DNA of 64,000 nt from Pseudofabraea citricarpa (Eukaryota; Ascomycota; Leotiomycetes; Helotiales; Dermateaceae). The position numbers were made by a program, and so were the translations under genes. The notes under the pieces are model-generated. The model ran no database searches and was not told where the DNA came from. It worked only from the letters and a program-made list of their open reading frames with translations. The stretch's first letter is position 1. Each line of letters begins with the position of its first letter. Positions 11,120 through 15,439 of the stretch are shown in pieces. The stretch lies in contig JAPWGK010000004.1 in assembly GCA_029641185.1 (NCBI GenBank), forward strand, positions 62,001 to 126,000, given 5' to 3'.

Positions 11120-12965
11120 AGGAGGTGATTTCAAACTGTAAAGGTTCGGTTCTTCAATTCAAATAACACTAAAATGATCAGATAAAACGAATGTATTGAC
11201 GAATTCAGCGAGTGAGTTGAGAATGAAGATGATAGCAAGACGCCGTCGTGATGGACGTTATATACATTATTTGGCGACATGGAAACATCCAACATCCAGC
11301 GTGCTCGCGTGCACTGCAACTCGAATTGGAAACGTCTCGTGTGACCAATGAGGCGTCTGTGGCAGTGTTCCTGGCCGACAAAAAGACAGCGCAGGGAGAC
11401 TCGTAATCCAAGCTGTCTTGGACTTCTTGTTTCCTCGATTAAAGTTGGGATCCCCACACGCTCGCTTGCTGTCATTCGCCTATCGAGCTGTCAAGAAGGC
11501 TAAATCACTCAGGGCTGTTATCTGACACCTGTACGAGGTCTATGTTGGGATAAGAAGCTGCATGTCTGAGCCTTGCTACTCCCTGCCTTCTTGGGACTTG
11601 TGAAGGGTCCACACTGCACTGTACGTGAGAAAGCTTGGCTTGCTACTCGGTGCGCTTCCGCTTGCTCCAAATCACCAGATTTGAAGCCTCGTTTACCACT
11701 CCCATGAAACTCTCAATTGATGACTATTCTTTCTTCTTAGTGGCTACCGGACCTTGACTTTGGTGCTCGGCGACCTGCAGGGAAAGGCCTCCACAAAAGT
11801 GAAAGACTCCAAAAATAGTAATGGGGATTGCATCTGAGTGATTTCATTTTGATGATGATGGCACGAGTAGAATGAAAATCACCACCTTGCGCGGGAGGCA
11901 TCCATATTTTTGGGGAAGATCTTCAAATCCCCGCGCCAAAATTCCGGTTTCGGTCCCGCAGGTATTGAGATTTTGGAGGTGGATTCCTAACAATCGCGAT
12001 CATCATTCTAGAAGCGTGACAAGCGTTTGCCGAGCTTACGCAAGGAGGCGAGGTGTTTGCCGAGCATTACGCAAGCCCTTAGCCGACGATCCGTCACTGC
12101 TTCTGCAACATCAGATAAGTCTAACTCTTATCGAGGAGACGCCAATCAGCAGGAACCGCGAGCCTGAGAAATCTGGAGTGGCCTGACTGGTTCCTACCCA
12201 ACCCTGGCTCCGTTTCACCCGAAGTACATACGGTACTGTACACATGGCGGCTTTGGGATAGCGTCCGCAAGCTGCCCAGTCAACCAGCCATCCTGGGCAG
12301 CTGTCCGAAGCCTTAGGACCACAAGGGCACTTTGAGCTCCTCAGTTGCGGCTTAGACGTGGTAAAGTCTTATTTCGTGCCTCAGAATCCGGGACTTTCTC
12401 GAATACGACCTTTGTCTCTAGCCTCAGATCGTCAGCAGATGCCGAATAGGCTGAAGCAAGCTTCTTAGGCGACTTCTATCACGATCGCGACAGGAACCAG
12501 AGTTTAAAGGCTATGTGCACTTGCCTGCTGCCCCAAACCTGTTTCCATCTATTTCCTCAGGCAGGCAACGTCATCTCATGGCTTGGATACAGACGGCTCT
12601 TGTGACCACTAAACAGTCTGATGATTCTCATGTTGTACATCAAAAACTGTGCTGGGTAGAATCATCTTCTATTCTTAGAGTGAGATGAAATGGAAAGAAC
12701 GCGAATGCATTACGAGATCTAGGCAATAGATAGCCACAATTATCGATGAGCCACAAGACATGCAGTGTCTTTGCGTTGGAAAGGAATGAAGCAACTTACA
12801 TATAATAACCGTGTCTTGACCATGGTTCCTTGCAATAGACCATCAGACAAACCAACACTCGCTCAGCTCACAAGATATCCGCACTCGTTTCCAGCCCCAA
12901 CACACTCGCTGAATCCTTTTTGACTTCAGTACTATCACGATCCTGTCTCTTTCTCTGAATCTAAA
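11120..12965. other. Divergent intergenic region between transporter and glycerate kinase
   Basis: About 1.85 kb shared upstream region of the MFS transporter (-) and the glycerate kinase (+). The sequence is of ordinary composition. Open frames at 11131-11475 (-) and 11872-12186 (+) show no family features. I cannot support individual binding sites. Confidence 0.5.
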
Positions 12966-14300
12966 ATGATGCAGCCTGCCGAGAAGCCCAAGAAGAACAA
13001 CTTGAACATTCTGATCGCCCCCTCGGGGTTTAAGGAGAGCCTCAGCCCAGAATCCGCTGCCAACTGCATCGAAGACGGCATTCTACGTGCACTCCCTCTC
13101 GCTACCATCAAGAAAGCGCCGCTTGTTGATGGGGGAGAGGGCTTTGCAAAAGCTTTGGTCGCTTCGACTTCTGGCGAGATCAAACGCCTCACTGTCACCG
13201 GTCCGGTCGGTGAACCTATCGAGTCCCACTATGGCATTCTTGGAGAATGCAATACCCCAACAGCAGTGGTGGAGATGGCTGCTGCTGCTGGTCTCAGTCT
13301 CGTTCCTAAACATCTCAGAGACCCAGGTGTTACCACTACATACGGTGTAGGAGAGACTATCGTCGCCGCCTTGGATGCGGGAGTCGATCGTATCATAATT
13401 GGATGTGGTGACTCCGGTACCAGCGATGGAGGTGCTGGAGCCCTGCAAGCACTGGGAGCACGTCTGCTAGATGGCAATAACAACGAACTCCCCAGAGCCG
13501 GAGGTGGAAAGGATCTCTCCAGACTCAAAAGGATTGACATGTCGAGAGTACACCCAGGCTTGAAGAAAGTTCAAATCGACGTCGCTTGCAACTGGCACAA
13601 CGTCCTGTGCGGACCTAAGGGAGTTGCGCGTGTCTTTGGGCCTCAGAAAGGAGCAACGCCCGAACAAGTCGAGGAATTATCCAACGCTTTCGACAACTAC
13701 GCTTCGATTGTTAGTGGTATACTCGGTAGAGACATCTCTCGAGCCCCTGGAAGCGGTGCTTCCGGTGGACTTGGAGCAGGACTGATGCTCGCCGGAGCAA
13801 CACTGCATTCGAGATATGATCTGATTATGAAATACTTCAACTTGGATACCTTCATCGACGATTGTGATCTCGTCATTACCGCCGAAGGGTCATTGGATGA
13901 CCAGACTCCGCACGGAAAGATCCCAGCACATGTCGCCATGCGAGCTAAGAAGCGTGGCCTACCCATCATTGCACTCGCGGGCACTATTGGTACTGACGCT
14001 CAGGTCAATTATGAAGTGGGCATAGACGCCTTTACAAGCATCGTGCAAGGACCAACATCTCTCGAAGACGCCATGACGGACACCGAGAGACTTCTCAGAG
14101 ACGCAGCTGAGAGCATGATCAGGATGGTCTTGATCGGGCACAGATTGGGCCATCCAAAGACCAGCGTGCCGCAGGACATGAGGGCCGTCCAGGGAATCAG
14201 GAAGGGGAAGGAGACTTTTTTTTTGTCCAGGGTTCGTTCTAGAATCCGTGCTTCGATTTTGCTGCGTCCTTTTCACTTACTCGCTGGGTATTTTGTTTAG
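12966..14300 (+). CDS. Glycerate kinase (GarK/GlxK family)
   Basis: Single exon, 444 aa, starting at ATG 12966 (a second Met follows at once). The protein matches the family 1 glycerate kinase fold (PF02595): IAPSGFKESLSPE at residues 17-30, APLVDGGEGF (51-60), TPTAVVEMAAAAGL, IIGCGDSGTSDGGAGALQ, GSGASGGLGAG and AEGSLDDQTPHGKIP. It phosphorylates glycerate to 2- or 3-phosphoglycerate, feeding photorespiration-like or serine/glyoxylate carbon into glycolysis. The family is best known from bacteria, and an intronless fungal copy fits old horizontal gain, but that is inference. Residues after about 400 are an Arg- and hydrophobic-rich tail unlike the rest of the domain. It is read through a T9 run at 14216-14224, so the annotated C-terminus may be affected by slippage or a sequencing error. 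The kinase core is complete either way. Confidence 0.92.
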   Translation: MMQPAEKPKKNNLNILIAPSGFKESLSPESAANCIEDGILRALPLATIKKAPLVDGGEGFAKALVASTSGEIKRLTVTGPVGEPIESHYGILGECNTPTAVVEMAAAAGLSLVPKHLRDPGVTTTYGVGETIVAALDAGVDRIIIGCGDSGTSDGGAGALQALGARLLDGNNNELPRAGGGKDLSRLKRIDMSRVHPGLKKVQIDVACNWHNVLCGPKGVARVFGPQKGATPEQVEELSNAFDNYASIVSGILGRDISRAPGSGASGGLGAGLMLAGATLHSRYDLIMKYFNLDTFIDDCDLVITAEGSLDDQTPHGKIPAHVAMRAKKRGLPIIALAGTIGTDAQVNYEVGIDAFTSIVQGPTSLEDAMTDTERLLRDAAESMIRMVLIGHRLGHPKTSVPQDMRAVQGIRKGKETFFLSRVRSRIRASILLRPFHLLAGYFV

Positions 14301-14541: not shown

Positions 14542-14668
14542 GCCCTCGTAGCTCAATGGTAGAGTAAGTAGCCATCCAACCTCAGTATCACATATAACAA
14601 TGTCTAACAAACAAACAGGCGCGTCACTAGTAATGACGAGGTTGCCGGTTCGATTCCGTCCGAGGGCA
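14542..14668 (+). tRNA. tRNA-Thr(AGT) interrupted in the D stem by a 55-nt GT-AG insert
   Basis: Exon 1 is 14542-14563 and exon 2 is 14619-14668; together they make 72 nt plus no encoded CCA. The cloverleaf is complete: acceptor GCCCTCG/CGAGGGC with discriminator A, D stem GCTC/GAGC (only after removing the insert), anticodon stem CGTCA/TGACG with loop CTAGTAA (anticodon AGT, threonine), variable loop AGGTT, and T arm GCCGG-TTCGATT-CCGTC with one C-T mismatch at 50:64. T8, A14, G18, G19, T33, T54, T55, C56 and A58 are all present. G1-C72 and C2-G71 fit Thr identity. A box TAGCTCAATGG and B box GGTTCGATTCC (14647-14657) are intact, and a T5 Pol III terminator follows. The anticodon loop is uninterrupted, so this is not the ordinary 37/38 tRNA intron. 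It could also be a recently interrupted pseudogene, but exact restoration argues for function. Confidence 0.9.
14564..14618 (+). other. Spliceosomal-type intron candidate inside the tRNA-Thr gene
   Basis: Fifty-five bases between tRNA nucleotides 23 and 24. It begins GTAAGT, carries a fungal branch site CTAAC at 14604-14608 (branch A 14607, 11 nt before the end) and ends ACAG. These are the same signals and size range as the mRNA introns of the neighbouring protein genes in this window. Its removal recreates the D stem GAGC exactly. Whether it is removed by the spliceosome, by the tRNA endonuclease, or not at all cannot be told from sequence. Confidence 0.8.
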
Positions 14669-15439
14669 TTCAGCTGATCTTGAGATATACCTTTTTGCAT
14701 TTTTGAGATTTTGGCATTAGCCAGAAAGCATGTTGGAATAATGCATAATATCTTTTTGAGATGTCTGAATTATTTGCCCTCCTCGCTTGCTGAATACTCG
14801 GTAGCCCCTGTGTGGGTGGCTTTTGACATTAGTCAGCAATCACTCATCCATCTCCTCCACCCCCGACGAAGTTGAAGCCATTTTTTGAATCTATGTTTAT
14901 GTTACTCAGAGGCACTTGGTCTTTTGTTCAGCATCGGTAAAGGAAGGATTAAAAACAACCCTTCATATATATCACGTAGAGTTCGATTCTCAAATGAGAC
15001 GACCTGGTGTTAGATGTCTGAAAATACTCGGCTGTGTGGATTTGCAGTAAAGTTGCCAGCCTTTCTTAATCCCTTCATGATTCAAGTAGGTTCCAAGCAC
15101 TTCGGTAAATGTCAACATGAATCTAATGCTCGATGCCGAGTTTATTTCAATCTCGTTGAGGTAGGGACGTCCCTTGCTACGACACTGTTCAGGTTAGCTC
15201 AACTTCGGATATAAGAATGGCGGGACTGACAGAGAAGCTCTGATTCTTGTTTTAATAGCTTTGCTATATCGATCAGTGTTAAGAAGAATTTAATGCAGTT
15301 GGTTTCCATTATAAACGCCCCCCAACCCTTGTCCTTTAGAAACGTCTGCCAAAAAGAGAGTTTTAGCAAGTTTTACTTGGTTAGCAATCTGGGCAGAGGT
15401 TCTTCTGGAACTATTATATCGAACTGCAACTAATAAAGC
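14669..15439. other. Intergenic, AT-leaning, no supported gene
   Basis: Downstream of the tRNA. Contains only short open frames without family features. A B-box-like string near 14978-14991 has no acceptor stem or anticodon arm around it and is not called as a tRNA. Confidence 0.45.
14692..14696 (+). terminator. Pol III T5 terminator of the tRNA-Thr gene
   Basis: A run of five T begins 24 nt after the tRNA 3' end, followed within a few bases by a second T run (about 14700-14704). This is the normal Pol III termination signal and supports Pol III transcription of the interrupted gene. Confidence 0.7.

Follow-up and report, generated by a model that had tools for sequence, protein, structure and literature searches.

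The introns of eukaryotic nuclear tRNA genes canonically lie at position 37/38, where they are cut by the Sen endonuclease, the ends being sealed by tRNA ligase. A second kind of intron turns up elsewhere among the genes of RNA polymerase III (Pol III). U6 snRNA is both essential and a Pol III product, and in fungi (S. pombe and others) its gene reportedly carries introns of the mRNA type, as Tani and Ohshima are said to have found in 1989 and Canzler et al. in 2016; these fungal U6 introns have a CTAAC-like branch site. A tRNA precursor has reportedly been brought to the same machinery by design: Koehrer, Vogel and Domdey are said to have shown in 1990 that an artificial yeast tRNA precursor holding a pre-mRNA intron is spliced via the pre-mRNA pathway.

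According to the available part of a 2017 paper, U3 and U6 were the only small structured RNAs then known to be often interrupted by introns (PMC5832005). For tRNA genes, the available part of a 2014 review names nucleomorphs and Cyanidioschyzon as the exceptions to the view that insertions in the D or T arm mark pseudogenes (PMC4090602). The review (PMC4090602) has no occurrence of “spliceosom,” and a paper on the Guillardia nucleomorph (PMC3978253) has one mention, for protein genes. The non-canonical intron search of tRNAscan-SE 2.0 is, in the available part of its description, described for archaea alone (PMC8450103). Our search of the open-access literature listed no paper in which a nuclear tRNA naturally carries an intron of the spliceosomal type.

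The locus considered here, a tRNA-Thr(AGT) gene of Pseudofabraea citricarpa within a stretch of 64,000 nucleotides that we call the window, has something in common with each of these systems and departs from each of them. It shares with the canonical introns a nuclear tRNA gene as host, and the canonical kind is frequent in this genome (31 of 45 ARAGORN calls), but the D-arm introns of this gene and its sister copies differ in position, are without a bulge-helix-bulge (BHB) motif and carry the splice signals of mRNA introns. Like the fungal U6 introns, they are short, have GT-AG ends and interrupt the Pol III gene of a structured RNA (and the genome’s own U6 has three); unlike them, they are housed in a tRNA, with its internal promoter and its cloverleaf, in four copies found and at two positions. 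The Koehrer construct reportedly proved the principle, the spliceosome being able to act on a tRNA precursor, but that precursor was engineered, whereas here the arrangement is natural and present in every copy found. The introns of fungal U3 snoRNA are likewise, in the part of the source available, spliceosomal introns in a small structured RNA, but U3 is not a tRNA (PMC5832005). With nucleomorphs and Cyanidioschyzon our introns share, as far as the available text of both sources goes, non-canonical places in eukaryotic tRNA genes, the D arm included (PMC4090602, PMC3978253). For the ectopic introns of Cyanidioschyzon, however, the available text invokes BHB motifs and the tRNA endonuclease (PMC4090602), and the inserts of the Guillardia nucleomorph measure 3-24 nt, with a mode of splicing given there as then unknown (PMC3978253), as against 55-56 nt here. 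On the reading favoured below, a kind already known, the Pol III gene with a spliceosomal intron, would here include a tRNA.

Results

The window gene

The tRNA-Thr(AGT) gene occupies window positions 14542-14668 on the forward strand and consists of two exons around one insert, with these parts:

14542-14563 (+), exon 1, tRNA nucleotides 1-23, with the 3' end ..GGTAGA; its first 18 nt are the same in the other three copies
14549-14559 (+), A box TAGCTCAATGG, wholly inside exon 1, with 4 nt between the A box and the intron start; named by the A-box consensus
14564-14618 (+), D-stem intron of the GT-AG spliceosomal type, 55 nt, between tRNA nucleotides 23 and 24
14564-14569 (+), 5' splice site GTAAGT
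14604-14608 (+), branch site CTAAC, with the predicted branch A at 14607, 11 nt before the last intron base
14615-14618 (+), 3' splice site ACAG
14619-14668 (+), exon 2, tRNA nucleotides 24-73, with a CTAGTAA loop in an intact anticodon arm and a T arm with one mismatch, C50.U64
14647-14657 (+), B box GGTTCGATTCC, which is C34:76647-76657
14692-14696 (+), T5 run, the likely Pol III terminator

An earlier note on this DNA had claimed a 55-nt insert with GTAAGT, CTAAC and ACAG in the D stem, an intact anticodon arm with no intron at 37/38 and a T5 terminator, and we find just these features, the insert at 14564-14618, the CTAGTAA loop uninterrupted in exon 2 and the T5 run where it is listed above. 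Its further claim, that excision restores a full cloverleaf, was slightly too strong, because one T-stem pair (C50.U64) is mismatched, as it is in ARAGORN’s drawings of all four copies. What does stand of that claim is that removal of the insert leaves a 72-nt tRNA, and when a tRNA finder is run on this insert-free sequence, as the note had proposed, ARAGORN names it tRNA-Thr(agt), with a score of 120.5. On the unspliced gene, ARAGORN makes no tRNA call with introns off and misnames the gene tRNA-Val with introns on; the Rfam tRNA model runs end to end over 14542-14668 at 43.2 bits (cut-off 29), with the insert placed in the D arm.

No other Rfam family reached its gathering score in the window, and none reached E 0.01 in the four loci. 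A self-splicing group I or group II intron was considered and rejected; the insert has no catalytic core, and its 55 nt are too short for an intron of either group. A glycerate-kinase ORF (12924-14300) lies 241 nt upstream of the tRNA gene and in the same direction. Its nearest protein, at 76%, is from Phlyctema vagabunda, and that of the window’s SRPK, at 88%, is from Coleophoma cylindrospora; both species belong to the Helotiales.

Four copies, all interrupted

The genome searched amounts to 43,985,132 bases in 43 contigs, and the copy searches were made for tRNA-Thr(AGT). The earlier note had suggested counting the other tRNA-Thr(AGT) genes of the genome: four were found, at C34:76542 (the window), C34:218419, C28:359460 and C10:275566, and every one is interrupted. 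BLAST of the whole gene against the genome gave the identical set of four loci, which were also the only loci in the genome to match a pattern of the 3' exon with up to three mismatches. A pattern of the first 18 nt, at the same tolerance, matched 33 places (four perfectly, 29 with two or three mismatches), and a reversed-pattern control matched 18. The uninterrupted tRNA-Thr(AGT) junction, sought throughout the genome with up to three mismatches allowed, had no match. An anticodon region TAGTR with a B box GGTTCRANYCC 12-42 nt further on was matched 19 times; by eye we classed four of these as the interrupted genes and one as locus L062, to which we return below.

In all four copies the insert stands after the A box, with a length of 55 nt in the window, 56 nt in C28, 55 nt in C34:218419 and 55 nt in C10. 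None occupies the canonical Sen position, 37/38. Three lie at 23/24, and that of the C10 copy, the interior of which differs from the other three, lies at 19/20, directly behind the A box. Exact GT-AG excision yields one identical 72-nt tRNA-Thr(agt) from all four, and all four have an A box, a B box and, after a trailer of 20-23 nt, a run of at least five T. The loci are separate, and their neighbouring ORFs differ.

Wider searches put these genes in context. The Rfam tRNA search of the genome, in which 63 of 1716 candidates were scored, gave 62 matches, none of which is one of the four interrupted genes. Across 115 loci ARAGORN made 45 tRNA calls (distinct by sequence plus 20 nt of flank), 31 with an intron in the anticodon loop (ARAGORN position 36-41), 10 with none and four with a D-arm intron; two loci of C36, which is probably mitochondrial, were excluded from this count, and the doubtful loci L062 and L026 were included. 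In a structural search of the loci examined, 93 T-arm candidates were scanned near the D arm for a GT-AG insert that has a branch site and whose removal leaves a sequence of tRNA length with a paired acceptor stem and an A box; under these criteria, which were fixed once the four genes were known, the search returned only those four, each with a single solution. The exact exon pattern had no match in the viral and prokaryotic contig collections.

Intron signals and those of mRNA introns

The donors of the four tRNA introns are GTAAGT in three cases and GTACGT in one, the branch sites CTAAC in three and TTAAC in one (with the branch A 11-12 nt ahead of the intron’s final base) and the ends ACAG in three and GCAG in one. 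For comparison, we used nine introns of coding genes in the window, hand-picked among 15 viewed stretches and checked for continuity of the reading frame, one of which, in the SRPK kinase, is confirmed by a homologous protein (P0121) that is continuous across the junction. These nine have donors GTAAGT, GTACGT, GTATGT, GTAGGT and GTAAGA, ends that read YAG and lengths of 47-70 nt, a range within which the 55-56 nt of the tRNA introns fall. (Ab initio detection of mRNA introns from codon usage gave 0 and then 3 candidates and was dropped as too weak.)

Donor, branch and acceptor were combined in one score, its donor and acceptor weights trained on those same nine introns and its branch weights chosen manually to follow the general consensus of fungi. 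On this scale the tRNA introns score 15.7-16.7 and the nine mRNA introns 10.2-16.7, so that the tRNA introns lie in the upper part of the mRNA range. The window has 2315 stretches, 53-57 nt long, that run from GT to AG; a single one of them reaches 15.66, the minimum for the tRNA introns, and that one is presumably the window tRNA intron itself. The chance that a random 55-mer of the window has GT at its start and AG at its end, with one shift permitted, is 0.0067. The inserts have GT...AG ends at the borders that the mature RNA dictates, and also the signals and their spacing, the length and the conservation of signals by which a U2-type spliceosomal intron is recognized.

Conservation of exons and introns

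All 72 exon positions agree among the four copies. The three introns at 23/24 have only 51-63% pairwise identity outside their signals (21/41, 26/41 and 24/41), and their signal columns are identical in 13 of 14 cases, as against 19 of 42 for the other columns (Fisher p = 0.0015). At the rate of the non-signal intron positions, the chance of 72 invariant columns would be about 1.6e-25. The same three introns agree in 32 of 56 columns, compared with a mean of 18.4 and a maximum of 26 in 60 shuffles, and by their sequences they are homologous. Selection that preserves both the splice signals and the mature tRNA would be the simplest reading of these alignments. Gene conversion could keep the exons alike, but tracts that reached the introns would have made the introns alike too. 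What commonly betrays a tRNA pseudogene, an insert in one of many copies and decayed exons, was not found in these four genes. Moreover, the codons ACT and ACC are used often (59 and 74 times among the 3945 codons of nine window ORFs), and a tRNA that reads them is therefore needed.

Predicted folds of the precursors

The predicted folds of the four precursors have no junction structure or helix in common and are mildly more stable than those of shuffled sequences, with z from -1.2 to -2.1. In the predicted minimum-energy folds of the C28 and C34:218419 precursors, the first intron bases, GU, are paired in a D-arm-like helix, and this donor helix also appears in the predicted centroid fold of the window copy. 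The helix, GCUC/GAGU, joins window positions 14551-14554 and 14562-14565, and the same site is seen in L054 and L055. Pairing of the donor GU, if the folds are right, may compete with U1 binding or hinder it.

Other candidate threonine tRNAs and neighbouring observations

Could some other gene supply the same tRNA? At L062 (C1:1559265-1559355; positions 1432-1522 of the locus) ARAGORN calls a tRNA-Thr(agt) with a 16-nt canonical intron, at a score of 106.0 versus the 120.5 of the excised window gene. The best Rfam match there is tRNA-Sec at 21.4 bits (cut-off 47; the tRNA cut-off is 29), and the locus has G14, a weak D stem, a T-stem mismatch, a B box and a T8 run downstream. With introns allowed, ARAGORN made one call in 2 Mb of random sequence, which makes it unlikely that the call at L062 is pure chance. 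We regard L062 as a pseudogene or a divergent tRNA, and judging by its sequence it is probably a pseudogene rather than a working gene; as an alternative source of tRNA-Thr(AGT) it is weak, although if it did work, the interrupted genes would not be the sole source. A tRNA-Thr with another anticodon might also read ACU or ACC.

Two more ARAGORN calls bear the name of threonine. L026 (C3:712663-712740; locus positions 301-378) is called tRNA-Thr(ggt) and has an Rfam score of 37.3 bits, above the cut-off, but it looks like a copy of a repeat, because its downstream flank is that of L028 (C25:29580-29653; locus positions 301-374), on another contig; from these sequences L026 and L028 are probably a tRNA-derived (SINE-like) repeat. 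The head of L027 is similar to the tRNA-like heads of both. L018 is called tRNA-Thr(cgt), with its intron drawn at the odd place 35/36, and may be misnamed.

Among the arginine tRNAs, L082 (C3, about 1287764) was considered as a further interrupted gene and not supported: it holds the 3' part of a tRNA-Arg(TCT), around locus positions 1480-1522, and the 5' part is absent from its 3011-base locus. Short repeats nearby contain GACTAACAAAG. On contig C12, two clusters separated by roughly 111 kb (C12:2624-3940 and C12:113956-115272) are mirror images of each other; each is made up of one tRNA-Arg(ACG) and three tRNA-Arg(TCG), and the pair looks like an inverted duplication.

U6 and SRP RNA

A genome search for U6, in which 47 of 2951 candidates were scored, found a single match, at C2:955536-955687 (L057), with 33.2 bits, below the cut-off of 44. 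Three introns with GT-AG ends split it; they measure 55, 50 and 52 nt, have branch sites TACTAAC or TACTAAT and lie within C2:955502-955709:

L057 1467-1521, U6 intron 1
L057 1548-1597, U6 intron 2
L057 1623-1674, U6 intron 3

Once these are removed, the sequence reads by eye as U6 and is followed by a T7 run. One of the introns separates the ACAGAGA box from the AGCAUGG segment. Intron 2 has a weaker donor, GTAAGC, and a score of 11.57, which about 14 of the 2315 null stretches reach; a U6 core without intron 2 was not found in a pattern search of the genome with up to three mismatches. If this is the sole U6 gene, then, given that U6 is essential and made by Pol III, splicing of at least one Pol III transcript is indispensable here. 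Pol III genes are not all affected, since SRP RNA, also a Pol III product, has no large insert (268 nt versus a model of 293 positions).

Discussion

What, then, takes these inserts out? We consider it very likely, from the sequences and their comparison, that the window gene is a working nuclear tRNA-Thr(AGT) gene with a U2-type spliceosomal intron in its D arm, which would be removed from the Pol III pre-tRNA. Identical exons, divergent intron interiors, conserved signals and a split U6 all support the spliceosome. The earlier note had left two alternatives, that the spliceosome processes this Pol III transcript or that the gene is a marked relic; the interrupted copies, the divergent introns and the split U6 speak for the first of these.

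The steps would be as follows. Pol III would transcribe the pre-tRNA from the internal A and B boxes to the T run. Transcription should tolerate the intron, because in all four copies the A box is complete upstream of it and only the spacing between A and B box is lengthened; canonical tRNA introns lengthen that spacing likewise. U1, U2 and the tri-snRNP would assemble on the 55-nt intron, which would leave as a lariat, and after its excision the D arm would form, with processing of the ends, modification and charging to follow. The Sen endonuclease would have no role in the D-arm intron, and presumably serves the anticodon-loop introns of this genome. As for origins, the tRNA-Thr(AGT) family gained an intron at least once and, because there are two insertion sites, probably twice. 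The introns of the C10 copy (L053) and of the window copy (L056), at 19/20 and 23/24, stand four bases apart, as they would after two gains or after one gain and a slide.

Other explanations have to be weighed against this one. The genes could be relics, into which mRNA introns have landed and whose copies are dying or dead, with another tRNA reading ACU and ACC. According to the 2014 review, a short D- or T-arm insertion in a eukaryotic tRNA gene mostly affects a single member of a large synonymous set and is read as the mark of a pseudogene (PMC4090602), and in L062 the genome has a weak tRNA-Thr(agt)-like candidate. Yet here four of the four copies found are interrupted, their splice signals are conserved, the codons ACT and ACC are common (the 59 and 74 of 3945 in the nine window ORFs), and the exons of all four are identical while introns at the same site have diverged to 51-63% identity outside the signals. 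This last contrast disfavours the relic, which we hold to be very improbable. Nor was the second alternative of the earlier note borne out: intact intronless copies would have pointed to a relic, and, as far as that test has been run, the relic fails it, because no intact copy was found and all four are interrupted. It is still harder to believe that the insert is simply retained, as a long extra loop in a tRNA that works unspliced, or that the inserts are errors of assembly. For two of the four RNAs, the predicted minimum-energy fold of the unspliced form does keep a D-like helix that uses the intron GU, but a retained insert would leave the conserved splice signals without explanation, and we know of no cytosolic tRNA with a 55-nt loop on the D side; assembly errors are hard to square with four separate loci and inserts that differ. 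Both variants seem to us extremely unlikely.

There remain the possibilities that the inserts are removed by a different enzyme or from a different transcript. An ectopic tRNA intron could be cut by a Sen (archaeal-type) endonuclease or something similar, as in Cyanidioschyzon merolae and perhaps in nucleomorphs. Such an enzyme is presumably present, given the many anticodon-loop introns of the genome, and the available text of the review has non-canonical D- and T-arm introns in those algae (PMC4090602). At the D-arm junctions of our four copies, however, there is no BHB: in exact register 0, 1, 0 and 0 of the four central pairs form, and at best 2-3 of the four if shifts of one base are allowed. 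That absence is not decisive, because many ectopic introns of the Guillardia nucleomorph also have no defined BHB, in the part of that paper available (PMC3978253). The donor, branch and acceptor signals are conserved, though Sen has no need of them, and the part broken by the insert is the D arm, which, in the available part of the review, is a contact of Sen54 (PMC4090602). We think removal by Sen very unlikely. Alternatively, the spliceosome might act on a Pol II read-through transcript, for instance the 3' region of an mRNA, from which the tRNA is then cut out. The window gene, 241 nt downstream of a glycerate-kinase ORF in the same direction, is well placed for this, and plant transcripts that join tRNA and mRNA have been reported (PMC8166872). 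But the four copies stand at separate places among different ORFs, all four have kept the A box, the B box and the run of at least five T after 20-23 nt, and U6, a Pol III gene with a T7 run of its own, is split in like manner. Read-through, too, we judge unlikely.

If the spliceosome does remove these introns from Pol III transcripts, several consequences follow. The usual programs for finding tRNA genes can overlook such genes or give them a wrong name, as ARAGORN does here, and more cases may therefore sit undetected in other genomes. The family would be a natural system in which to study intron recognition by the spliceosome on a Pol III transcript that has no cap, is short and folds rapidly. 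The use of the spliceosome by a tRNA family would break the largely held view that eukaryotic nuclear tRNA introns form a single class, one at 37/38, cut by Sen and sealed by ligase. For the fungus itself, we think it likely, again from sequence, that the maturation of tRNA-Thr(AGT) is wholly dependent on the spliceosome, each of its genes having to be spliced as a Pol III transcript, that in this lineage spliceosomal introns have been spreading into Pol III genes, with three in U6 and two sites in tRNA-Thr, and that threonine decoding and U6 are thereby coupled to the capacity for splicing. With the U6 gene found itself split by three introns, the spliceosome would be needed both for U6 and for the tRNA decoding ACU and ACC, and a component of translation would be dependent on the splicing of mRNA.
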